Shown: positions 1,221-47,602 of the stretch, one piece after another
Layout: every line of letters begins with the position of its first letter
How positions within the stretch are numbered: position 1 is the stretch's first letter
Assembly (NCBI GenBank): GCA_900316355.1
Contig: ONCQ01000013.1
Coordinates: forward strand, 1-59,406
Direction: 5' to 3'
DNA: 59,406 nucleotides
Source: an uncultured Prevotellaceae bacterium
GTDB lineage: Bacteria; Bacteroidota; Bacteroidia; Bacteroidales; Bacteroidaceae
The notes under the pieces: model-generated
Databases searched by the model: none
What the model was told of the DNA's origin: nothing
The model's input: the letters and a program-made list of their open reading frames with translations, nothing else
Made by a program: the position numbers and the translations under genes

Positions 1221-4200
1221 TTATTTCTTCACCACTTTTCGGCCATTAACGATAAAGATTCCCTTGTTCCAGGTTGCAGGGTGTATGCGCCTTCCGCTTA
1301 GGTCGTAGATGGTTGCAGGGGTAGTGGATTGTGGTTTTTCTGTGATTTCATCGATGCCTACGGATTCATTGAAGCGGATGCGAATCTCGGTGGGGCTGTT
1401 CCATTTATTGGTGCTGTTGCCGCTGCAGAGGATTCGCACATAGCGAGCCTCCACGGGTGTGAAACGGTAACGCTCCATCTGGTTGGTGAGGCCGCTGCTG
1501 ACGATGGTACCGGTGGCATCTGTCCAAGTCCGGTTGTCGATGGAGGTCTGTATCTTAAAGGTGAAGGTGCGCTGATTGCCATTGTAGAAAGCCATATCTA
1601 CGGCATAGACATTCTTGACATCCTTTAGTTCGAAGCAGATCCATTGGTTCATGCCCTCTTGGCTCCAGCGGGTGGATAGGTTGCTGTCGTTGACATTGGC
1701 TTCCACGTTCGTGTTATTTTCCCGTCCTATAGCGGTGATGGTGATGTTCTCCTGTTTTTCGTCCAGCGGCACGGTGCGCATCAGTGTGCGGCGCTGGTTG
1801 TCAGCCATCTCTCCGCCCGCCTCGCTGTGTATGTCGGAAACAATCAGCTCATAGCGGCCATAGTCCAGCGGCTCACTCAGCGTGATGGTCACCGTGTGGT
1901 CCTCGCCGATATGGAAGTCTGCGGCATCAACGGCTGTGAGTTCACTTAGATAAGGATCCCCGTTGATGAGCGAGCGCAACAGGTAGTTGCCCGCATCTGA
2001 GGCCTCTGTGGCGTCGGGCTGCTGGTTGAAGGTCACGGTGATTCGTGCGGCATCATCACTGAGCCGCACGCCCGTCATGCGAAGCTTTGGCAGGTTGGCA
2101 TCATCAGCCGCCAGCTTGCTCATCTCTGCGACGGCCATGAGGTAGGCGCCTACACCGAAGTCATGGTAGTCAGTAGCCTTGATGGTCGTGTTGGGGCTGG
2201 CATTTTCTCCTATAGGCTGTATGTACCCCACAGTGCCGTTTTCCTGTAGCGCGATGGTGGAGAGATAGTTCCAGGCACGCTCCAGTGTGGCGCCGTACTC
2301 CATCTCAGAGAGGATGCCGTTGCGGATACCCCAGGCGTATGCGAATGTGTTGAGAGCCGTGCCGCTCGTCTCGCGGCCTGGAGCCTGTGCCGGGTCATGG
2401 AGTGAGCGCGTCCAGTAGCCCTCGTCCTGCTGACATGCTTTGAGGGCTGCTGCCATACGACGGTAGTAGGTGATATACTCCTCGCGATGCACATCGTCCT
2501 CGGGTAGCTCGCTGAGCACCTTGGCGAAGGCGGCGAAGATCCAGCCGTCGCCGCGCGCCCAGAAGTCCTTCTTACCAGTGTATGTTGTGTGGGCAGGATA
2601 GACATATTTGGCATCGCGGAAGTAAAGACCAGTTTCCTCGTCATACATGATGCTGTTGGCATACTGCCAATAGTCGTACATCTTGTTGAGATAAGTCTGT
2701 TCGCCCGTGATGTGATAGAGCTTGGTCATGATAGGCATCACCATGAACAGACCGTCCACCCACCAGAGATAGTCGTTGGCATCGGTCGATATCTCATAGC
2801 CCATGACTTCCAAGGCACGTTCAATCTTCTTCGGGTCGTGCTGCGAGTCAAGGTTATAGAGGTCGGCATATACCTGGAAGCATACCTGGTTGTCGCCGAA
2901 GAGCACCCAGTTGCTCCCTTCGCCGTAGGTCTTATACTGCCATGTTTCGGGATTCGTGCCGGTGGCTCCCCACCAGTTGCTGCGCTCGGCCCATGCCGTA
3001 CTGTAGTTGCGGTATTGCTCATCGCCGGTCACATCATAGGCGGCCATGTTGCCAATGTGATAGACGGCTCTGTTCCAGAAGTAGTCGCCATAGTTGGGAT
3101 GGCGCTCCTGCCATGTCTGGTTGACGGTGTTCAGGATATGTAGTACTTCCTCGCGTTGGGGCAGTGTCTGCATGGATGTGGGAGCGAGCGGTTGCTCAAT
3201 GGTCTGTTTGAAATTGAGCAGTGCCTCAAACCATGCCTCGTCGCTGTCATAGCGCCCTGCGGGGAAGATCGACCATCCGCCACCGAAGTAGAATGTGAGC
3301 TCTGTGCCCACCGTGTAATCGGTTGTGAGACACAAGTGGCTGTCAATCACCTCAGTGGTGACAGCTCCTGCGTGTTCCCCAGAAGGTATATACGCCCCCT
3401 GGAAGAACCGTGCCCCGGCGCTCGTGATGCTGCCCTCGCTCTTTGCCTCTGCCCATGCCACCAAGCCTGGTGTCTTCGAGTCGGCCACGCCTTCCACGAG
3501 GTGTGTCATATCCGTATGCTGATACACCGCTACGGCCAGCTTGAATGTCTTCGCAGGGCCTTCGAAGCGCACGGTTGCCTTATTGAGCAGGGCACCCGCC
3601 GTAGTTGTAACGTGGAGCGTCTTGGTATAAGCAGAACCATCCACCATCACATTGTTATAGGTCAGTGTGAAGCTCGACTGCAGTGCTGACTGTTCATCGA
3701 TGACGCAGCTGTTATAGGGATTATGCATCTGCAGGTGGCCACCGACCACAGCTGCCGTGCCTCCGCATCCCAACCGTTTTCCGTTGACAGAGTAGGCATC
3801 CACGCCATACTGGCTCTCATTGTGGTAGTTGGAGAGTTTGTACATATCGTCGATGACGGGTATGGCCTTCTTTTTGAACCACACATCCACGCCCTGCGCT
3901 GTGTTGGGCTCGTTTTTGAGCAGCGTCGAGGAGTACATGCGGTAGGCGCAGAGGTCGTTTTCCCAAGCGATATCATCGCGCGTCGATGGCATCTTGACAG
4001 CGGCATAAGTCACTTTTGATGGTGCCGTGGGTGTACCGTCGGTCAGTGTGTAGCCAGTCGTAGCGCCGTGAGGAACGGTGGCGCGGAAGCGGATGGTATG
4101 CCCGTCGGCCAGCGCTTCGAAGGGCACTATCGTGCCGTTTTCGGTCTTCAGTGTATGAGTGGTTGGGTTGATATCCTCTGGCAATACTACCTCCACCGTC

Positions 4201-4367: not shown

Positions 4368-5477
4368 TTATAGGATAATGCCATCGAGCATGGTCAAGTA
4401 GTCCTTAATGGCTCCCCTTATCTCTGGGATGCGAATGTACTCATCTGCTGTGTGGCTGCGGGCGCTGTCGCCGGGGCCCATTTTCAGCGAAGGCCATGGC
4501 ATCAGGGCCTGGTCGGAAAGCGTTGGCGAACCGAAGGTGCGGCGTGGCTCGCCTTCCAACGTGGCACCCAGTGCCAATGCGCGTTGTACCAGCGGGTGCT
4601 GTTCATCAATGGATGATGAGTTGAGGCGGAAGGAACGGGCTGTCACTTCACTCTTCGCGTGCGCGCATACGCGTTCATATATTTCTTGGTTAGAGTAGCA
4701 CTCGTTACTCCGCACATCCACGGTGAACGTACAGCGGTCGGGCACCACGTTGTGCTGTGTACCCGCCTGCACGATGGTGACACTCATCTTCACGGGACCC
4801 AGCAGTGGCGATGATTTCGGGAAATGGTACGTGCGGAACCATTCGATGTCCTGTATGGCATGGTAGATGGCGTTGTCACCCTCATTGCGTGCTGCGTGTC
4901 CGGCCTTTCCGTGGGCTGTGCAGTCTAATACCATCAAGCCCTTTTCCGCAATGGCGGGCTGCATCTTTGTAGGCTCGCCCACGAGGGCTACGCTGACAGG
5001 TGGCAGCTGCTTCAGCGCACGCGCTATGCCATCACGCCCGGACACTTCCTCCTCGGCAGATGCCAGGAAGATGAAGTTGCAGGATTGAGGACGTGTTGCC
5101 AATATGCGGAATACCTGCAGTAATGCCACCAATGAACCGCCATCGTCATTGCTTCCCAGACCATAGAGGCAATCGTCTTCCAATGTTGGGGTAAAGGGGT
5201 CGCGTTGCCAAGCATCTACAGGTTTTACCGTGTCGATATGTGCGTTCAGCAGTAGGGTGGGGCGCTGTGCGTCGTAGTCACGGGCGATGCACCACACGTT
5301 ATGACCATCGCGCTGCAAGGAGAACCATTTGCGTCCGCTAGTGTCATGCTGCCTCTTGGCAATAAAATCAAACAGCACATCAGCAGCAGCGCCCTCGTTG
5401 CGGCTGGTGCGCGGCGTGGCGATAAGTTGTTGCAGCAGTGCAACCGCTTCGTCGGTCATGGATGATAAATTGCTCAT
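4368..5477 (-). CDS. M20 family metallo-deacetylase/peptidase, ArgE/DapE type
   Basis: The 369-residue cytoplasmic zinc hydrolase carries the M20 metal ligands in order: H80-x-D82 in NAHIDTV, D111 in GSNDDGG and the E142-E143-E144 cluster in ASAEEEVSGRDG. A dimerisation domain follows (GKAGHAARN), and a distal SPTLSDQALM segment takes the position of the last ligand region. The overall pattern resembles acetylornithine or succinylornithine deacetylases of Bacteroidetes arginine synthesis, but DapE and generic dipeptidases share it, so no symbol is given. It heads the minus-strand run ending in manC. A perfect -7 box 24 bp upstream supports the chosen ATG. Confidence 0.85.
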   Translation of the reverse strand: MSNLSSMTDEAVALLQQLIATPRTSRNEGAAADVLFDFIAKRQHDTSGRKWFSLQRDGHNVWCIARDYDAQRPTLLLNAHIDTVKPVDAWQRDPFTPTLEDDCLYGLGSNDDGGSLVALLQVFRILATRPQSCNFIFLASAEEEVSGRDGIARALKQLPPVSVALVGEPTKMQPAIAEKGLMVLDCTAHGKAGHAARNEGDNAIYHAIQDIEWFRTYHFPKSSPLLGPVKMSVTIVQAGTQHNVVPDRCTFTVDVRSNECYSNQEIYERVCAHAKSEVTARSFRLNSSSIDEQHPLVQRALALGATLEGEPRRTFGSPTLSDQALMPWPSLKMGPGDSARSHTADEYIRIPEIRGAIKDYLTMLDGIIL

Positions 5478-5500
5478 GACTTTTTTTCATCTTGCAGCTG

Positions 5501-5508
5501 CAAAGGTA
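5501..5508 (-). promoter_or_regulatory. Bacteroidetes -7 box for the M20 gene
   Basis: The minus strand reads TACCTTTG, an exact match to the TAnnTTTG -7 element of the primary Bacteroidetes sigma factor. It lies 24 bp upstream of the ATG at 5477. Confidence 0.75.
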
Positions 5509-5645
5509 ATGATTTTTTCTATTATCGTCTCATAAAAGGGTTGTTTTTTCCGAAAAAGTGCTACTACATAAGCCAAAAAGGGAAAAAACGTGGTTTCTTT
5601 CACACAAATCTTTCAACTTTCACCCTTTTACTCTCAACTTTTCAC

Positions 5646-5683: not shown

Positions 5684-7492
5684 ATGCTGAATCATGCTTC
5701 TCTTTCCGTGCTCATTCATGAGCAGGCCAAGGTGTATGGCGACCGCGTAGCGCTGAGCTATCGCGACTATGCAACAGCCACGTGGCGAACCATCTCATGG
5801 AACGATTTCTCCAAGCGTGTATCGTTGGTGTCTAATGCCTTGTTGACGATGGGCGTGGGCGTACAAGAGAACATTGCCGTGTTCTCCCAGAATAAGCCCG
5901 AGAGTGTCTGCGTCGATTTCGGTGTGTATGGCATCCGTGCGGTGAGTATCCCCTTCTATGCCACCAGCAGCGAGGCGCAGATCCAATATATGATTAACGA
6001 CGCCTCCATTCGTTTTGTTTTCGTGGGCGAGCAGTATCAGTACGACACCGCTTTCCGTGTCCTCAAGATGTGTCCCACGCTGGAGCGCCTCATCATCTTT
6101 GACCCCACGGTGCAGAAGAATCCGCAGGACCAGGTGTCTCTCTACTTTGATGAATTTCTGCGACAGGGCGAGGGCTTCCCCTTCTCAGAGCAGGTGGCAG
6201 AACGTGCTGCTGCCGTGCAGCCCGATGACTTGGTGAACATTCTCTACACTAGCGGCACTACGGGTGTCTCTAAGGGCGTCACTCTCACCTATCGTATGTA
6301 TGCAGCTGCCATCCCCGCCAACGATGCTGTTATGCATCTCTCTGACAAGGATGTTATCATGTGCTTCCTGCCTTTCACCCATGTCTTTGAGCGTGCCTGG
6401 AGCTATTGGTGCCTGAGCCGTGGCGCACAGCTGGCCATCAACCTCAAGCCGCAGGATATCCAGATGACGTTGCGTGAGGTGCATCCCACTTGTATGGCCG
6501 CCGTGCCGCGCTTCTGGGAGAAGGTGTATGCGGGTGTGCAGGAGAAGATAGCCACCAGCAGTGCCATGCAACGGAAGCTGATTCTGGATGCGCTCGCCGT
6601 AGGCAAGAAATACAATATCGACTACAAGATGAAGGGTATCATCCCTCCGTTGCCGCTGAAGCTACGCTATGCTTTCTACGAGAAAACCATTATCTCTCTT
6701 CTCAAGAAAACCCTCGGCCTCGAGAATGCCCACTTCTTCCCCACGGCAGGCGCTGCTATCCCGCGTGAGGTGGAGGAATTTGTGCATTCCTGCGGCATCA
6801 ATATGACAGCCGGTTACGGTCTTACCGAGACGACGGCCACCGTCAGTTGTGACTGGCATGACTCCCCCGTCTGCGTAGGCTCCGTGGGCCGTGTCCTTGA
6901 AGGTATCGAAATCAGCTTCGGCGAGAACAATGAGATTCTCCTCAAGGGAGACACCATCACTAAGAGCTATTACCGTAAGGCTGAGATGACGGCACAGGCC
7001 ATCGACAAGGATGGCTGGTTCCACACCGGTGATAGCGGCTACATCAAGAACGGCGAGCTCTACCTCACCGATCGCATCAAGGACCTCTTCAAGACTAGCA
7101 ATGGTAAGTATATCTCCCCGCAGGCACTGGAGTCGAAGTTTGTAGTGGATCGCTATATCGATGAAATCGCGATTATTGCTGATGAGCGCAAGTTCGTGTC
7201 AGCTCTCGTCATCCCCGACTACAGCCTTCTGGAGAAATGGGCGCGCGATAATGCCGTCGCCTTTGAGACGCGCGAGCAGCTCTGCGAGAACCCCTTGGTC
7301 GTGCAGATGGTGCTCAGCCGCATCTCTATGTTGCAGCAGGAGTTCGCCCACTACGAGCAGGTGAAGCGCATCACGCTTCTTCCAAGGCCTTTCTCCATGG
7401 AGCGTGGCGAGCTTACCAATACGCTGAAGATACGCCGCCCCATCATCGCCAAGAACTACAAGGATCTCATTGATAAGATGTATGAGGAATAG
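5684..7492 (+). CDS. Long-chain fatty acid--CoA ligase (AMP-forming)
   Basis: The 602-residue enzyme activates fatty acids to acyl-CoA through an acyl-adenylate. The P-loop-like motif YTSGTTGVSKG lies near residues 187-200, the adenylate motif YGLTETTATVS near 377, and HTGDSGY followed by DRIKDLFKTSNGKYISP near 447-480. The insert and end resemble the long FACS form common in Bacteroidetes. The frame remains open back to 5558, but those 42 codons overlap the promoter at 5646 and encode no family-like sequence, so the later ATG was chosen. The gene diverges from the M20 gene. Substrate chain length cannot be read from the sequence. Confidence 0.92.
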   Translation: MLNHASLSVLIHEQAKVYGDRVALSYRDYATATWRTISWNDFSKRVSLVSNALLTMGVGVQENIAVFSQNKPESVCVDFGVYGIRAVSIPFYATSSEAQIQYMINDASIRFVFVGEQYQYDTAFRVLKMCPTLERLIIFDPTVQKNPQDQVSLYFDEFLRQGEGFPFSEQVAERAAAVQPDDLVNILYTSGTTGVSKGVTLTYRMYAAAIPANDAVMHLSDKDVIMCFLPFTHVFERAWSYWCLSRGAQLAINLKPQDIQMTLREVHPTCMAAVPRFWEKVYAGVQEKIATSSAMQRKLILDALAVGKKYNIDYKMKGIIPPLPLKLRYAFYEKTIISLLKKTLGLENAHFFPTAGAAIPREVEEFVHSCGINMTAGYGLTETTATVSCDWHDSPVCVGSVGRVLEGIEISFGENNEILLKGDTITKSYYRKAEMTAQAIDKDGWFHTGDSGYIKNGELYLTDRIKDLFKTSNGKYISPQALESKFVVDRYIDEIAIIADERKFVSALVIPDYSLLEKWARDNAVAFETREQLCENPLVVQMVLSRISMLQQEFAHYEQVKRITLLPRPFSMERGELTNTLKIRRPIIAKNYKDLIDKMYEE

Positions 7493-32990: not shown

Positions 32991-34487
32991 TTACTTCACA
33001 ACGACCTTCTTTCCTCCGTGGATATAAATTCCCGGAGCAGTCGGCTTCTCCGCAAGCTCTACGCCGTTGATAGTGTACCAAGGAGCAGAATCATCAGCAT
33101 CGGCAGCCTCGACATTGTTTACTTCGGTTGAAGGGTCAACACCTGCGTATTCTACCCAAGTGTCTCCGTCATAATAACGCGGTATCCATCCTTTAGCCTT
33201 CGCAGCAGTCACCTGAGTAGTTGTCATCACGTTCTGTTCGTTCTCATAATAGACAACACGCATAGTGTAATTGCTTACTGTCGGCAGACTCGCCACGAGT
33301 GCATCCATAGCAGCGCCCTTTATTCGGTTCTGATAACAGTACAGCCTTGTCAGCACCGTATTCTTAGACACATCAAGAGAAGTAAGTTGGTTGTCGTAGC
33401 AGCGTAGCTCTGTCAGCGCAGTACATCCTGATATATCAAGCGAAGTAAGCTGGTTGGAGTAGCACCACAGTTCTGTCAGCGCTGTAAATCCTGACACATC
33501 AAGCGAAGTAAGCTGGTTGGAGTAGCAGTGCAGCCTTGTCAGCGCAGTATTCTTCGACACATCAAGAGAAGTAAGCTGGTTGCCGCCGCAGGACAGATAT
33601 TTCAGCGCAGTATTCTTCGACAAATCAAGAGATGTAAGCTGATTGTTGTAGCACCACAATATTTCCAGCGCCGTATTCTTCGACACATCAAGAGAAGTAA
33701 GTTGGTTGCTGTAGCATTCCAGCTCTGTCAGCGCAGTATTCTTCGACACATCAAGAGAAGTAAGCGGGTTCTTTTGGCACTTCAGACTTGTCAGCTTCGT
33801 ATTCTTCGACACATCAAGCGAAGTAAGCTGGTTGCTGTAGCATTCCAGCCCTGTCAGCGCAGTATTCTTCGACACATCAAGAGAAGTAAGCTGGTTGTCG
33901 AAGCAGTCCAGATATATCAGCGCAGTATTCTTCGACACATCAAGAGAAGTAAGCTGGTTGGAGCCGCAGGACAGCGTTTCCAGCGCAGTATTCTTAGACA
34001 CATCCAGCGAAGTAAGCAGGTTGTCGTAGCACTCCAGCCTTGTCAGCGCAGTATTCTTCGACACATCAAGAGAAGTAAGCTGGTTGTTGTCGCATTGCAG
34101 CCATGTCAGTGCAGTATTCTTCGATACGTCAAGCGAAGTAAGCTGGTTGTTGTAGCAGAACAGCGTTGTCAACGCAGTACATCCCGAAACATCAAGGGAA
34201 TTGAGCTGGTTGTCGCTGCAGCGCAGATCTTCCAGCGCAGTAAAAAATTCAATGCCCTTCAGACTGCTGATGGTTCCAGGTGAAAAATAAGTCCCCGATA
34301 CATTAATACTTGTCACTCCAGCAATCTCCTCATCCGTCAGCTTTCCGTCGCTGCCATAATCCTGACTCAGCAGATAATTTCGGAAACTCGCATCCGGGAA
34401 ATTCGTTTCGTTAATTTCCACATCAGCCCATGCCGTGCCAGCCGACAGCAGCATAAGCGCAGAAAAAAGTAAGTGTTTAAGTGTCAT
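32991..34487 (-). CDS. Secreted leucine-rich repeat protein with C-terminal sorting tail
   Basis: The 498-residue protein has a signal peptide (about 1-21, ending AWA) and a cap region with INETNFPDASFRNYLLSQDYG and LTDEEIAGVTSINVSG. Fourteen near-identical 21-residue leucine-rich repeats follow (TALxxLxCxxNQLTSLDVSKN, about 83-376) plus one degenerate repeat, a linker and a tail ending PGIYIHGGKKVVVK. Such repeats form a curved solenoid, suiting surface adhesion or ligand binding. The start lies only 6 bp after the stop of a truncated toxin gene and no -7 box lies between, so it may depend on the antitoxin promoter at 34921. It probably expands and contracts by recombination between its repeats. 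Confidence 0.88.
   Translation of the reverse strand: MTLKHLLFSALMLLSAGTAWADVEINETNFPDASFRNYLLSQDYGSDGKLTDEEIAGVTSINVSGTYFSPGTISSLKGIEFFTALEDLRCSDNQLNSLDVSGCTALTTLFCYNNQLTSLDVSKNTALTWLQCDNNQLTSLDVSKNTALTRLECYDNLLTSLDVSKNTALETLSCGSNQLTSLDVSKNTALIYLDCFDNQLTSLDVSKNTALTGLECYSNQLTSLDVSKNTKLTSLKCQKNPLTSLDVSKNTALTELECYSNQLTSLDVSKNTALEILWCYNNQLTSLDLSKNTALKYLSCGGNQLTSLDVSKNTALTRLHCYSNQLTSLDVSGFTALTELWCYSNQLTSLDISGCTALTELRCYDNQLTSLDVSKNTVLTRLYCYQNRIKGAAMDALVASLPTVSNYTMRVVYYENEQNVMTTTQVTAAKAKGWIPRYYDGDTWVEYAGVDPSTEVNNVEAADADDSAPWYTINGVELAEKPTAPGIYIHGGKKVVVK
33297..34241. repeat. 63-bp tandem repeats encoding LRR units
   Basis: Fifteen consecutive 63-bp units encode the LRR solenoid. The segment around TCAAGAGAAGTAAGCTGG recurs in most units with very few changes, whereas the part encoding the variable positions differs. 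Antisense frames across this region stay open only because of the repeat. Confidence 0.88.
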
Positions 34488-35096: not shown

Positions 35097-35311
35097 ATCA
35101 ACAAGGCATTCGTATAATTCGTTGTGAGAAAAGATAGCGTTGTTTAATTTTACACATAAATATAATAATTTCTAAGTTTTATCTGACACATCTATCACCG
35201 CAGTAGATAACTAATTTATAATAAACGGACTGCATTGTGAATGATAGTGTGATAAATGGTGTGAGAAGTGATAGATTTAACACTTATTTAACACAAATAT
35301 AATCCATAATA

Positions 35312-35343
35312 TTTGCATTTCGCGGATTTTTGTTATATCTTTG
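35312..35343 (+). promoter_or_regulatory. Full Bacteroidetes promoter of the DUF6078 gene
   Basis: TTTG at 35312-35315 and TATCTTTG at 35336-35343 are separated by 20 bp, a textbook -33/-7 pair. Transcription should begin near 35350, giving a short leader before ATG 35390. Confidence 0.82.
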
Positions 35344-35389
35344 CAGGCAGATAACAAGAACCATGTTTTACACTTAAAAACCGTTTATT

Positions 35390-35833
35390 ATGGAAACAGC
35401 TTTACTTTTCTCTGACGTTCCCACCAACTGGCCCATTTGCTTTCAGACGGGCTGTCCACTGGCCGCCAACTGCCTGCGCCACCATGCTGCGCAGCTCGCA
35501 CCGGCCGACCTGCGACACCACGAATGTGTGCTGCCCGGCGCACGTACGGCCGACGGCTGCCACAGCTTCGTCGAGGACAAACCCGTGCGTCTGGCACGCG
35601 GCATGAAGCGCCTGCTGCCGCGTATCACCTCCGAGAAGGGCATGGCGCTGCGCCAGCAACTCTACAACCTCTTCGGTAGCACCTCGCAGTTCTACCGCTA
35701 TCGCCGAGGCCGCTGGCCCATTCCGCCCGCACTGCAGGCACGCGTCGTGGCGCTACTCCACAAGTACGGCTACAAAACAGATCAGCCCTTCGACGAATAC
35801 ACTGATGGGTATTACTTCGGGCAGAATGGATGA
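35390..35833 (+). CDS. DUF6078-like cysteine-rich protein
   Basis: The 147-residue protein begins METALLFSDVPTNWPICFQTGCPLAANC and has a cysteine cluster C17, C22, C28, C46 and C57, suitable for a metal site. It then has the conserved run KPVRLARGMKRLLPRIT, a FYRYRRGRWPIPP motif and an acidic aromatic end (FDEYTDGYYFGQ). This resembles DUF6078 proteins of Bacteroidales, whose function is unknown. The central RxxLYxLFGSTSQFYRYRRGRWPI part could be a compact DNA-binding helix-turn-helix. It has its own strong promoter and is followed by 22-bp palindromic repeats and the VirE-type gene. Confidence 0.72.
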   Translation: METALLFSDVPTNWPICFQTGCPLAANCLRHHAAQLAPADLRHHECVLPGARTADGCHSFVEDKPVRLARGMKRLLPRITSEKGMALRQQLYNLFGSTSQFYRYRRGRWPIPPALQARVVALLHKYGYKTDQPFDEYTDGYYFGQNG

Positions 35834-35895
35834 TGCAGGGTTACACAACACATAGTGCAGGACTACACAATACAGGGTGCAGGATGTTATCACCA

Positions 35896-35981
35896 ATGGC
35901 AAATCATTTTGCCATGCATGGCAAATCCATTTGCCATCAGTGGCAAAAGCTTTTGCCACCAGTGGCAAATTGCAATGGACT
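35896..35981. repeat. Tandem 22-bp palindromic iterons
   Basis: Four head-to-tail units start exactly 22 bp apart (35896, 35918, 35940 and about 35962). Units 1 and 2 are ATGGCAAA, four bases, TTTGCCAT. Unit 3 is the perfect 20-bp palindrome GTGGCAAAAGCTTTTGCCAC. Unit 4 keeps GTGGCAAA and then decays. The array sits between the DUF6078 and VirE-like genes, ending about 65 bp before the VirE start. The even spacing of two helical turns suits cooperative binding by a dimeric protein. Confidence 0.88.
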
Positions 35982-36046
35982 AGGCAGTTTATGAGAATCG
36001 GACAAGGCGCAAGGCGCATTCAACAATAACGAAAATACTAAAGCCA

Positions 36047-38167
36047 ATGAGATTCACAGGTATCAGAATAGACAAGAAACAGCAGATGAAGCTGAGCGTG
36101 CATGAGGCCGCATGGTTCATGGAACGCATGAGATACGAGACGCAGGAGCTCCTCATCAGCGGCTTCCGCGACTTCCTGAAGCGCGGATCGAAGTGGGGCA
36201 GCTACCCGCAGATGAGCAAGATAGCCAGGGTGTGCGTGAGCGCTGACTTCGGCCGCACGCCATCGGGCGACCTCACCATGAAGACCTTCAACGGCCTCGT
36301 GGTGCTGGAAGTACGACAGGTGGCCAACACCTCCACGCTGGAACAGCTGAAGCGGCGTGCCATGCAGTCGCCCGCAACATGGGCGGCGTTCATCGGTGCC
36401 AGCGGTCAGACGGTGAAGATCCTCGTGCGCGCAGAGCCTGACAACGGCGAGCTGCCGCAGGACGAAGTGAGCGCCGAGGATTTCTACACGACGGCCTACC
36501 ACCAGCTGCTGCCCCTCTACGACGGTCTGCTGGGTTGCCGCGTGACGCGCATCACGCCCCGCCTGCGCAACGCCTTCCTCATGCCCCTCGACACACAGCC
36601 GCTGGTCAACGAGGCTGCCGTGCCCTTCCGCATCACGGATATGCCGGCAGCCACCACGGACGATGCCGAGCAGCACCTGCTGGCGTTACCCGAGCCGCCC
36701 CGCGACTACCGCGAGGCGGACATGGAGCAGTACGTCATCCACGAACATCTCTACACGCAAGCCGCGCACGAGGCACACGACCGGCTGAAGGGCACACAGC
36801 GCTTCACGAGTGCGTGGTGGAAGGGCTTCGTCAGCAGCGTCATCACCGACCTCTGCCAGCAGGGCCTCGGCGAGGAGGAAGCGGTGTGTGTGACCTGGAA
36901 CAACCTGCGCTTCAAGGACGAGCCGGGGCTGACGGAAAACTTCGTGCGCGCCACCGCCGAGGCCATCTACGAACAGGAGGGGGCAACGGGCGAGAGCCGC
37001 ACGAAGAGCATGGTGGAGCCGCTCATGCAGACCATCATACGGCGCATGACCACCCGCTATGTGCTGCGCCACAACACGGTGATGGGCTACACGGAGTATC
37101 GCCCGAACCATTCGTGGGCAACGCCCTGGGAACCTGTCACGGACAAGGTCATCAACACCTTCACCACCGACCTGCAATTGGCCGGCCTCAACGTGTGGGA
37201 CCGCGACGTGAAGCGCTACATCAACTCCACACGCATCCGCGACTACAACCCCATCGAGGACTATCTGTGGAAATGCCGCGGGAAGTGGGACGGCCGCGAC
37301 CGCATCCGCACCCTCGCAGCCACCGTGCCCACGGACGACCCGGCACAGTGGGCAGAGTGGTTCCACACGTGGTTTCTGGCGATGGTGGCACAGTGGCAGG
37401 GGCGCGACCGCCGCTACGGCAACAGCATCGTGCCGCTGCTCATCTCCGCACAGGGGATGCACAAGAGCACCTTCTGCCGCTCGCTGCTGCCGCCCGAACT
37501 GCGCTCATGGGGCTACACCGACAACCTGTCGCTCGCCGAGGAACGCCCCGTGCATCTGGCCATGTCGCAGATGCTGCTCATCAACCTCGACGAGTTCAAC
37601 CGCATCTCACCGCAGAAGCAGCAGGGCTTCCTGAAGAATATCCTGCAGCTGCCCAGCGTGAAGGTGAAGCGTCCCTACGGCAAACATATCGAGGAGGCGC
37701 CACGTCTGGCATCCTTCATTGCCACGACGAACATGGCCGACGTGCTCACCGACCCCTCCGGCTCGCGCCGCTTCATAGGCGTCAACGTGAAGGGCAGCAT
37801 CAATGTCTCACGCCTGCCTAACCACGAACAGCTCTATGCGCAGGCGCTGAAGGAGCTGGACGGCGGCGCGCGCTACTGGTTCGACGATGCTGAGACCGAG
37901 CAGATAATGCGACACAACCGTCAGTTCCAACAGGTGCCCAGTGCCATGCAGCACTTCCTCGAATACTTCGAGCCGGGCACGGACGACAACGGACGGTGGC
38001 TGACAGCGGCTGCCATCCTTCAGGAACTCAGGCAGTCCCTCGGCAGCGTGTTCCAAGTGCCCTCAGTAATCACCTTTGGGCGACAGCTGCATGGATTGGA
38101 AAGTCTCCAGCGGCATCGCTCAAGAAATGGCGAGATTTACTATGTTCAAACGCGGGATAAGGACTAA
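36047..38167 (+). CDS. VirE family primase-helicase-like protein with BT4734-like N-terminus
   Basis: The 706-residue protein has a BT4734-like N-terminal domain (about 45-195, KIARVCVSADFG, FNGLVVLEV) related to primase-polymerase folds. A helical linker follows, then a VirE/superfamily-3-like ATPase domain (about 340-610). Walker A is ISAQGMHKSTF near 465-475, Walker B LLINLDEFNRI near 507-517, and sensor ATTNMADVL follows. An additional C-terminal segment (about 620-706) resembles a winged-helix region. Such proteins occur in mobile elements of Bacteroidetes and in many chromosomes. Iteron-like palindromes lie just upstream, as in replication modules. The coding sequence is GC-rich and intact. 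Confidence 0.82.
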   Translation: MRFTGIRIDKKQQMKLSVHEAAWFMERMRYETQELLISGFRDFLKRGSKWGSYPQMSKIARVCVSADFGRTPSGDLTMKTFNGLVVLEVRQVANTSTLEQLKRRAMQSPATWAAFIGASGQTVKILVRAEPDNGELPQDEVSAEDFYTTAYHQLLPLYDGLLGCRVTRITPRLRNAFLMPLDTQPLVNEAAVPFRITDMPAATTDDAEQHLLALPEPPRDYREADMEQYVIHEHLYTQAAHEAHDRLKGTQRFTSAWWKGFVSSVITDLCQQGLGEEEAVCVTWNNLRFKDEPGLTENFVRATAEAIYEQEGATGESRTKSMVEPLMQTIIRRMTTRYVLRHNTVMGYTEYRPNHSWATPWEPVTDKVINTFTTDLQLAGLNVWDRDVKRYINSTRIRDYNPIEDYLWKCRGKWDGRDRIRTLAATVPTDDPAQWAEWFHTWFLAMVAQWQGRDRRYGNSIVPLLISAQGMHKSTFCRSLLPPELRSWGYTDNLSLAEERPVHLAMSQMLLINLDEFNRISPQKQQGFLKNILQLPSVKVKRPYGKHIEEAPRLASFIATTNMADVLTDPSGSRRFIGVNVKGSINVSRLPNHEQLYAQALKELDGGARYWFDDAETEQIMRHNRQFQQVPSAMQHFLEYFEPGTDDNGRWLTAAAILQELRQSLGSVFQVPSVITFGRQLHGLESLQRHRSRNGEIYYVQTRDKD

Positions 38168-38192
38168 AAACGGGTGAGATCTATCACCCATT

Positions 38193-38277
38193 CTCCCATC
38201 TATCACACAATCTATCACCTTCCATCTATCTGTTAATGAACAGTATAGGCGGAAGGTGACAGATGTGATAGATGTTT
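38193..38277 (+). terminator. Terminator of the VirE-like gene
   Basis: CATCTATCACACAATCTATC... CACCTTCC (from about 38196) pairs imperfectly with GGAAGGTGACAGATGTGATAGATG (about 38251-38274), followed by six T. The stem is built from the TCTATCAC octamers. It lies directly before the convergent ABC transporter stop codon (38279). Confidence 0.68.
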
Positions 38278-45577: not shown

Positions 45578-47602
45578 TTAGGGGGTGAGGCGGTCTTCGT
45601 TCATGCGCGACATATACTGCTGGATGATGGCCTTCAGCTCGCGCTCCATCTGTGGCTGACGTGGCTCGCGGCCTACGAGATTCTCCTGCAGTAGGCTGTC
45701 GCCGAGGGCATAGACGGCGCGCGTCTGCTCGCCATCGAACTGCAGCAGGCGTCCGTGCTTGATATATTGATAGATACCATTGTTATAGTTCACTGCCCAG
45801 GTGCTGTCGGCGGCCGTATGGAAAAGATCGAGGCCAAAGGCGAAGTAGGGCGTATCATGATGTAGCAGTCCCAACACGCTGGGCATGATATCGATGTGTT
45901 GGGCAATGCTCTCACGCATCCCTGGTTGGAAGAGATCACCGCTGGGATCATAGAAGATGATAGGTGAGCAGAAGCCGCCGATATCTGTCTGATAGAAGGC
46001 GTGGTCGCTGAGGTTGGTGTGGTCGGAGGTGAGCACGAAGAGCGTGTTCTGGAACCATGGCTGCTTGTGGGCTTCCTCGAAGAAACGGCGCAGGGCGTGG
46101 TCGGTGTAGCGGATGCACTTGTGGATGATGAGGCCCTCTTCGGGGAAAGTGTCGCGATAGGCCTCTGGTATCTGGTATGGATGGTGGCTGGTGGCGGTGA
46201 AGAGTGCTGTCATGAAGGGCTCCTTCAATTCAGAGAGTTGGGCGCAGTAGAACTGCATGAAGGGTTCATCCCAGATGGCCCACATGCCATCGAAGTCCTC
46301 ATCACCACGGAAGCGGGAGTCGGCATTGAACTCATCGCGGCCGAAGTATTTCTGGAAACCTGTCTTGCGAGCGAAAGCCTGGAAACCCATGCTGCCGTTC
46401 TCGGCACCATGGAAGAAGGCTGTCTCGTAGCCATGTTTGTCGAGCTCCTGTGCCAGGCCGCCGAAGGTGTTCATGGAAGCGGGCGTCAGCACGAAGGGTT
46501 CCACGAACATAGGAATGCTGGAGAGAATGCTGGGCATGCCATCGATGCTCTTGCGGCCGTTGCAGAAGGACCAGCGGAAGGTGGCGCTCTCGTGGCATAG
46601 CTCATCCACGAAGGGTGTGTAGCCGGCGTAGTGACCGTCCTCAAGCGTCTCATTGAGAGCACCGATGTATTCGCGTCCGAAGCTTTCGATGATGAACACG
46701 ACTACATTCTTGGGAATGAAGGTGCTATCGGTTAGAGATGAGTGGATAGGCGTGTAAATTCCGGCCATTTCATCGGCATCCTCATAGTAGGCGGGTGTTA
46801 TAAATTTAGCCTTTCCGATTGTTCGGATGAGGGCAAAAGGTGTGTTCAGGATGATGGCAGCCTCGGCAGGGCGGGCAACATACTGGTTGGCATTGGAGAT
46901 GGTGATGGGACGCACGGCTGTGGTGGCACCGCCACGCATGCCGATAACGGTCAATGGAATGTAGGCGGCGAAGATAACCAGATGCAGGAGGTAATAATAA
47001 AGCCCTTGGGCTTTCGATGTGAAGACCATGGTCTTATGGCCTGAAGAGCATGGTCTTATGGCTTGAAGACCATGGTCTTCAGACGGAAGCCTGTAGACCT
47101 TCCAAAGGAACGTGATGAAAGTGATGCCTGCGAGCACCAGATACCAGTGGCGCAGTAGCTCGATTCCTATGATGTTCGCGAGGTTCCCTTCATTCGAGAA
47201 TTCCTGGAAGACAGAGGTGGTGGTGCGGCGCCCAGTATATTGGAAATAGACGGCATCGGCTAAGTTGATGATGATAGCAAGGCTGTTTACGATGATGAAG
47301 ACCCATTTCGCTGCCGTCTGCCACCGGCACCGTTCCTTCCAATGCAAGGGGATAAGCATAAGGAAGGCGTAGAGAACGTTGGTGTAGAGGATGGCGGAGG
47401 TGTCGAACATCCACGCCCCCGTGACGATATCCTTGAGCGAGTTGGCGCTCCAAAACTGTGGGAAGGCGGAATAGTTCTCTGCCCAGAAGACTAGACGGCA
47501 TAGCCAATAGACGACATAGGCCATCGCCATGTTCCAGACGAAGGCTAACGGCGTGCAGAGCAACGGCGTGGCGAATAATGCGTGGTCTTTTTTTACTCTC
47601 AT
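45578..47602 (-). CDS. LtaS-like membrane phosphotransferase (paralogue 1)
   Basis: The 674-residue protein has about five N-terminal transmembrane helices (within 15-225) and a periplasmic alkaline-phosphatase-fold domain. VVVFIIESFGREYIG has the metal ligand E306. CNGRKSIDGMPSILSS places a Ser (352) where LtaS has its nucleophilic Thr, and SDHTNLSDHAFYQ has the late ligands. It should transfer a phosphoglycerol or phosphoethanolamine group to an envelope glycan. It is one of three tandem paralogues separated by 1-4 bp. The cytoplasmic or inter-helix loop at about 172-195 is encoded by a 22-bp tandem repeat. Confidence 0.86.
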   Translation of the reverse strand: MRVKKDHALFATPLLCTPLAFVWNMAMAYVVYWLCRLVFWAENYSAFPQFWSANSLKDIVTGAWMFDTSAILYTNVLYAFLMLIPLHWKERCRWQTAAKWVFIIVNSLAIIINLADAVYFQYTGRRTTTSVFQEFSNEGNLANIIGIELLRHWYLVLAGITFITFLWKVYRLPSEDHGLQAIRPCSSGHKTMVFTSKAQGLYYYLLHLVIFAAYIPLTVIGMRGGATTAVRPITISNANQYVARPAEAAIILNTPFALIRTIGKAKFITPAYYEDADEMAGIYTPIHSSLTDSTFIPKNVVVFIIESFGREYIGALNETLEDGHYAGYTPFVDELCHESATFRWSFCNGRKSIDGMPSILSSIPMFVEPFVLTPASMNTFGGLAQELDKHGYETAFFHGAENGSMGFQAFARKTGFQKYFGRDEFNADSRFRGDEDFDGMWAIWDEPFMQFYCAQLSELKEPFMTALFTATSHHPYQIPEAYRDTFPEEGLIIHKCIRYTDHALRRFFEEAHKQPWFQNTLFVLTSDHTNLSDHAFYQTDIGGFCSPIIFYDPSGDLFQPGMRESIAQHIDIMPSVLGLLHHDTPYFAFGLDLFHTAADSTWAVNYNNGIYQYIKHGRLLQFDGEQTRAVYALGDSLLQENLVGREPRQPQMERELKAIIQQYMSRMNEDRLTP
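47021..47086. repeat. Three tandem 22-bp units inside an LtaS-like gene
   Basis: Units at 47021-47042, 47043-47064 and 47065-47086 repeat GAAGACCATGGTCTTATGGC with few changes, each built round the palindrome GACCATGGTC or its variant. The period is not a multiple of three, so the units are read in three different frames and together stay in frame. Confidence 0.85.

Follow-up and report, generated by a model that had tools for sequence, protein, structure and literature searches.

A stretch of 59,406 nucleotides from an uncultured Prevotellaceae bacterium (GenBank assembly GCA_900316355.1, contig ONCQ01000013.1; hereafter the window) carries an array of palindromes at exact 22-bp intervals, set between a gene for a protein of the DUF6078 family and a gene for a VirE-type protein. 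Which protein reads these palindromes, and to what kind of unit do they belong? Our best reading of the sequence comparisons is that DUF6078 is a dimeric helix-turn-helix (HTH) protein with predicted binding to its own array. We consider it probable that the array provides cognate binding sites for the DUF6078 protein encoded just upstream, and that DUF6078, array and VirE together form a mobile element bounded by terminal inverted repeats (TIRs) and lacking a transposase of its own. Comparison across loci and genomes supports a code linking recognition helix to half-site, the 3' placement of the arrays, the TIRs, deletion derivatives and type-wise dispersal; from these we infer binding by DUF6078 as well as replication and movement of the element. 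The features concerned are:

35181..35284, plus strand: left terminal inverted repeat (ATCTATCAC...GTGATAGAT type), placed by profile models
35336..35343, plus strand: possible DUF6078 promoter, a match to the motif TAnnTTTG
35390..35833, plus strand: DUF6078 gene, 147 aa, with four invariant Cys (17, 22, 28, 57), a predicted lambda-repressor-like HTH at about 66–140 and predicted recognition helix 98–105
35834..35877, plus strand: two imperfect 22-bp direct repeats directly after the DUF6078 stop, 77% identity, spacing 22
35897..35969, no strand: 22-bp-spaced palindrome array, with sites in the DUF6078 register at 35908–35925, 35930–35947 and 35952–35969
36047..38167, plus strand: VirE-type gene, 706 aa, BT4734-like_N plus VapE-like ATPase
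38171..38276, minus strand: right terminal inverted repeat, adjoining the 3' end (38279) of a convergent ABC-transporter gene

The palindrome array and DUF6078

Exact palindromes of the form TGGCAAA-N4-TTTGCCA begin at 35897, 35919 and 35941. An earlier note on this DNA had described four palindromic units at 22-bp intervals; the spacing is indeed exact and three units are complete, but the fourth, at 35963, has a left arm only and is a half unit. The third unit is the perfect 20-bp palindrome that the note had seen (GTGGCAAAAGCTTTTGCCAC, 35940–35959). These three are the only exact copies in the window, and not one of 200 block shuffles contained a copy; with up to three mismatches allowed, the window gives eight matches, whereas shuffles average 2.9 and 1 of 100 reached eight. 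Left and right arms follow one another at 11-bp steps, which gives a second palindromic register, offset by 11 bp and reading TTTGCCA-N4-TGGCAAA at the three sites listed above. The two direct repeats at 35834–35877 are possibly decayed units of the array.

The genes on either side are those that the note had proposed. The window's DUF6078 protein matches DUF6078 and no other Pfam family at E ≤ 1 (E 2.2e-33), and the gene downstream combines a BT4734-like_N domain with a VapE-like ATPase. The four Cys of DUF6078 are invariant across 27 aligned proteins. Its predicted fold is confident (pLDDT 89.5), with residues 66–140 matching lambda-repressor-like HTH domains weakly but consistently; the HTH matches returned by Foldseek and VIA-align were all weak. 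The predicted recognition helix (residues 98–105) spans the variable p2, p3 and p4 residues of an S-p2-p3-p4 stretch; types among the natural proteins include STSQ (window), SRTH (L001), SRAQ (L053), SRRQ (L015) and SERT (L024). DUF6078 was not named in any paper of the literature searched.

A code between recognition helix and half-site

For comparison we read 114 DUF6078 loci (the higher-scoring part of the match list plus 23 named loci; lower-scoring and fragmentary matches, and one with an internal stop, were left out), which gave 95 distinct genes once 19 duplicates were dropped. The helix pattern fits 44 of the 95 proteins (51 do not fit), and 35 of the 44 carry two or more N1-T-N3-N4-CA...TG sites; the nine with fewer, L022 and L075 among them, were left unscored. 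Basic residues at p2 go with G at N1 (22 proteins), acidic residues with C (4) and neutral residues with T (9), and none of the 35 proteins is an exception. Ala or Pro at p3 goes with T at N4 (16) and polar residues with C (18), which accounts for 34 of 35, the exception having A; the omitted single-site protein L134 shows A too. When one protein was kept per 70%-identity cluster, the p2 rule held in 23 of 23 and the p3 rule in 22 of 23. Neither rule was matched in any of 20,000 permutations, and site and helix stay correlated once the remainder of the protein is allowed for, with a partial r of 0.62 (0 of 5000 permutations). In the window, the register that matches this code is TTTGCCA-N4-TGGCAAA and not TGGCAAA-N4-TTTGCCA. 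The covariation suggests that recognition-helix residues specify operator bases, as in lambda-repressor-like (XRE) HTH proteins. The array of the unscored locus L022 looks to be of the window's type.

Arrays follow many DUF6078 genes in the genus

Among the 94 usable 3' flanks (the remaining one being short or N-rich), a palindrome pair reached threshold in 33 at 22 bp, in 32 at 33 bp and in 11 at 23 bp, with at most four at each other spacing from 12 to 35 bp. The 22-bp pair was found in none of 93 5' flanks, in none of 470 shuffles and in 5 of 327 regions 3' of other long open reading frames (ORFs; Fisher 4e-19), these control ORFs running from stop to stop and including spurious ones. From the DUF6078 stop to the first site the distance has a median of 12 bp and a range of 2–75 bp (35 scored loci), and array sequences differ between lineages. 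A 400-kb genome sample, picked regardless of arrays as 20 segments of 20 kb, contained four chains of at least three palindromes of any sequence at period 22; one such chain was found at period 25 and one at 33, the remaining periods from 15 to 33 gave none, and shuffles gave none at 22. Several arrays switch palindrome type yet keep the 22-bp grid. Mosaic arrays at L080, L043, L095 and L049 place unrelated palindromes on one such grid, several of their types having no identified reader.

A DUF6078 match is present in 82 of 139 genomes of the genus, and the named relatives come mostly from ruminant gut samples. Distant DUF6078 relatives (25–35% identity) occur in three Bacteroidales plasmid records and five phage-labelled gut records (H1–H8); a search of viral contigs found no relative.

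A VirE gene lies downstream in 27 of the 95 distinct DUF6078 loci and was not found, mostly within 1.5 kb, in the other 68. The motif TAnnTTTG, which we take to be the Bacteroidetes −7 promoter consensus, is present in the 200 bp ahead of 64 of 93 DUF6078 genes, as against 164 of 1860 mononucleotide shuffles, and in the 200 bp after the DUF6078 stop in 1 of the 27 VirE loci. Where both genes are present they look like one operon and the array, lying in a gap that the motif usually avoids, is probably not an operator of a VirE promoter; we disfavour that candidate, the motif being missing from that interval in 26 of 27.

Replication iterons serving VirE, which the earlier note had also considered, should, by the refuting test that the note itself set, recur upstream of VirE homologues. 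We read 30 loci among the BT4734_N matches, 28 with sufficient upstream sequence (three of these with DUF6078 nearby), and a 22-bp pair reached threshold in 5 of the 28, other spacings tried giving 0–3. As the 22-bp palindromes are mostly missing there, an iteron specific to VirE fails as a general rule; it was rejected as such also on the 27 of 95 loci with VirE, arrays following DUF6078 with or without it. Speaking for it, inspection by eye showed a 22-bp array ahead of all five VirE/VapE genes seen in the window genome (which has at least five). Palindromes of the window's type also occur at unrelated sites of this genome, often as 22-bp-spaced pairs or triples, without VirE. The comparisons support the note's idea that the array serves a dimeric protein, likely DUF6078, which the note had suggested testing for binding, and they place it beside a primase-helicase gene within a TIR-bounded unit; its assignment to VirE is not supported, and an iteron-like role of the array is possible.

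A unit bounded by inverted repeats

A profile model built solely from the two ends of a gene-less derivative in the window genome (L037) matches the window at 35185–35277 (E 1.3e-5) and 38274–38189 (E 2.1e-8), and nothing else in 459 kb. The limits listed above, which give a unit of 3096 bp (35181–38276), come from a model that included the window's own ends; a blastn search of the window found no TIRs, so that these repeats rest on the profile models. The second DUF6078-array-VirE unit of the window genome (C60, L044, of the GTCCCA type) lies between inverted 100-bp repeats, as do relatives. Across 25 units, TIRs were found in 13 of the 17 that have VirE and in 0 of the 8 that do not, a count in which L060 and L069 have less than 700 bp of 5' flank and a left end could fall outside. 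Ends of the C60 type are present in 8 of 139 genomes, some of which have them at several loci.

Gene-less units that keep both ends and an array are found at L216 (578 bp), L081 (580 bp) and L037 (394 bp). L216 is clearly an internally deleted derivative with scraps of both genes, while the interiors of L081 and L037 are different. Seven full units contain no plus-strand ORF of 100 codons besides DUF6078 and VirE, and hence no transposase gene is visible in them. Of the features that define a DNA transposon or a miniature inverted-repeat transposable element (MITE), the unit has TIRs and deletion derivatives that keep both ends, and lacks a transposase in the full-length element. No consistent target-site duplication was found at the units. 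In 29 of the 138 relatives that match (one of the 29 masked there), the window's element was not found after the ABC-transporter gene, and the next genes differ. In several of 30 loci the transporter gene follows rhaA within about 10–20 bp; in the window genome another gene is inserted there too, so the empty-site comparison is not clean.

After rhaA, where the L037 derivative sits in the window genome, the TIR-like ends and the palindromes of relatives L243, L245 and L247 are different ones, as if the region 3' of rhaA were a favoured place. At L334, an inverted pair (2928–3066 and 5424–5562; 141 columns, 69.5%) surrounds a VirE gene without DUF6078. In L037 itself, a Y1_Tnp-like gene (6098–7429; E 1.2e-4, 22.6 bits, cut-off 23) neighbours that derivative, which lacks genes and is of the window's type.

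Dispersed arrays

The window genome holds 27 exact copies of TTTGCCA-N4-TGGCAAA, and at least two array types together with their readers. Four palindrome types were scanned in the 139 genomes; high counts were confined to few genomes, and reversed-pattern controls gave at most one match per genome. A genome was counted at two or more sites, or at a single one where the longer pair pattern was used, and these thresholds were chosen after the counts were seen. On this basis the GTCTCA type occurred in 6 of 7 genomes with a matching DUF6078 versus 6 of 132 others (Fisher 7e-7), the GTGCCA type in 4 of 4 versus 3 of 135 (2e-6), the GTCCCA type in 4 of 5 versus 4 of 134 (2e-5) and the TTGCCA type in 2 of 3 versus 4 of 136 (0.005). 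Protein types in this test were taken from the loci read and no others, and G044, which has the same half-site with a 5-bp centre, was not counted as a GTGCCA match.

Of 50 arrays, 36 could be placed relative to genes (14 were unresolved): 14 in convergent, 17 in tandem and 5 in divergent gaps, against 16, 84 and 26 of 126 random gaps, a convergent enrichment (Fisher 8e-4) that depends on a home-made gene caller and compares arrays from several genomes with an expectation from the window genome alone. Two arrays are retained at orthologous sites in the related genomes G000 and G125. These genomes share a three-unit array in-frame within proA (L203 3524–3585 and L214 3577–3638); two solved ProA sequences are shorter there by about 12 and 16 residues, and the array looks like an insertion. 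Another array lies inside a long ORF (L202/L215).

Proposed explanation and alternatives

We postulate that a DUF6078 dimer would read palindromes of the form N1-T-N3-N4-C-A...T-G-n4-n3-A-n1 and, as sites two helical turns (22 bp) apart would place neighbouring dimers on one face of the DNA, that dimers would occupy the array side by side and bring in VirE, which would copy the unit. Copying through arrays could then spread them across the genome. An initiator-like role is favoured here because the BT4734-like family is listed among archaeo-eukaryotic primases (AEPs) and VirE-type ATPase domains are predicted helicases for mobile-element replication, in the part of the source compared (PMC5862659). 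Our best guess, tentative and held at clearly less than even chances, is that arrays with bound protein would have an iteron-like function and open or mark the DNA so that VirE can copy the element. More speculative still, and rather doubtful as a whole, is a class of self-spreading DNA without transposase or recombinase, in which DUF6078, directed to its own two-turn palindrome array by a two-residue code, would recruit an AEP primase/superfamily 3 (SF3) helicase that copies a TIR-bounded unit and so seeds genomes with operator arrays in a single fixed 22-bp register, even in-frame inside genes.

Several observations weigh against the explanation that we prefer. The code was spotted by eye and then scored on the identical loci, so that fresh data are needed, and L075, one of four omitted single-site proteins, violates the p3 rule. 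Sites without a matching DUF6078 among the loci read occur in G094 (24), G073 (10), G034 (9), G106 (7) and G096 (10), and G127 has nine GTCCCA pairs without one; the genomes are drafts. For copying by VirE in particular, G027 has 14 dispersed sites and no BT4734_N match, and ends were not recognised at many of the dispersed arrays.

DUF6078 might instead be an ordinary repressor, with the array as operator for VirE or for its own gene and the dispersed arrays as its regulon. The predicted lambda-repressor-like fold of DUF6078 fits this, as does the distance of 78 bp from the end of the window's array to VirE, and operator and recognition helix normally co-evolve in repressors. We nevertheless think it unlikely, as TAnnTTTG is usual upstream of DUF6078 and rarely lies between the two genes, most DUF6078 loci have no VirE found downstream, and the dispersed arrays favour convergent gaps (14 of 36 versus 16 of 126), with one in-frame in proA. 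If the arrays were selfish palindromes of the repetitive extragenic palindromic (REP) kind, moved in trans by, for example, a Y1 transposase of the REP-associated tyrosine transposase (RAYT) type or a DDE transposase, with DUF6078 as passenger or silencer, their dispersal, the gene-less TIR derivatives and the Y1_Tnp-like gene next to the L037 derivative, slightly under cut-off, would all fit. The absence of a further plus-strand ORF of 100 codons in the seven full units speaks against this, as does the tracking of DUF6078 residues by array sequence, which a passenger role leaves unexplained, and we rate such an origin as distinctly unlikely.

Bias to convergent genes, exact helical spacing and the two arrays at orthologous sites in G000 and G125 would also suit a nucleoid, insulator or termination factor whose functional chromosomal sites are merely carried by VirE elements. 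Array types, however, differ sharply among genomes of one genus, with at least two and their readers in the window genome; a DUF6078 match is missing from 57 of 139 genomes, and the in-frame proA array looks inserted, which together make this improbable. Tandem repeats form easily through slippage, and some arrays are mosaic, but different palindromes on one 22-bp grid, their absence from all 470 shuffles and the helix/half-site code leave hardly any chance that the pattern is an accident or a minisatellite without a reader protein; this origin was rejected on the shuffles, the shared grid and the 3'-flank counts. The preferred reading, a TIR-bounded element with DUF6078 as reader of its array, gives a domain of unknown function a possible role, with a compact and directly testable protein-DNA recognition code, and explains one class of 22-bp palindrome arrays that are dispersed in this Bacteroidales genus. 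It also poses the question whether such an element can be mobilised by a primase-helicase and an HTH protein without a transposase.

Comparison with known systems

No description of the DUF6078-array-VirE system was found in the literature searched, and we rate it as new in kind, since it departs from every known kind tested in at least one defining feature. Taken as a whole, the unit has the look of mobile DNA of a type not yet described, one that distributes sites of this sort through its host genomes; should a transposase be found to act on it in trans, it would become a variant of something known.

Helically phased repeats beside replication genes, together with a DNA-binding protein, characterise iteron-controlled plasmid replicons. 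By analogy the array may be likened to theirs, being phased and next to a replication-type gene; unlike them, the unit is chromosomal and TIR-bounded, its arrays are dispersed, and binding is predicted.

Closest in form is BrickBuilt, a MITE of Porphyromonas gingivalis, also of the Bacteroidales, which the parts of its description compared present as a gene-less unit of 23-nt tandem repeats with inverted ends in 19 intergenic copies, some without one or both ends (PMC4596501). Tandem repeats of near-equal length (22 bp here) and gene-less units with inverted ends are common to both. In that text BrickBuilt has 12-bp IS5-like TIRs, one repeat family and no partner protein (PMC4596501), whereas the system here has TIRs of about 100 bp and other sequence, its 22-bp units are palindromes with a cognate protein, and its full units carry genes; 23-nt repeats with 12-bp IS5-like TIRs do not occur in it.

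Closest in logic are REP sequences and bacterial interspersed mosaic elements (BIMEs) with their RAYTs, where, in the portion compared, a protein gene is likewise linked to its own genome-dispersed palindromes in type-specific pairs (PMC2817692). RAYTs are described there as tyrosine transposases whose gene lies between two inverted REPs with a GTAG-type head (PMC2817692). DUF6078, unlike them, is HTH-like with a single array 3' of its gene; the window's DUF6078 protein has no match to a Y1/HUH transposase domain (Pfam, E ≤ 1), and none of 93 5' flanks reached threshold for a 22-bp pair. The BT4734-like family and VirE-type ATPase are shared with the AEP primase-helicase modules that mobile elements carry, and the text compared has no TIR-bounded element with palindrome array and HTH partner (PMC5862659). 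Rickettsia palindromic elements are also in-frame palindromic insertions in genes; they measure about 150 bp and have no cognate protein in the text compared (PMC10969869), as against the three-unit array in proA here.

Other features of the window

A second 22-bp array, of a different type (AAGACCATGGTCTT) and without a known reader, lies at 47019–47091. At 32991–34487 a leucine-rich-repeat protein is encoded by DNA with a 63-bp period, with a long ORF on the opposite strand.
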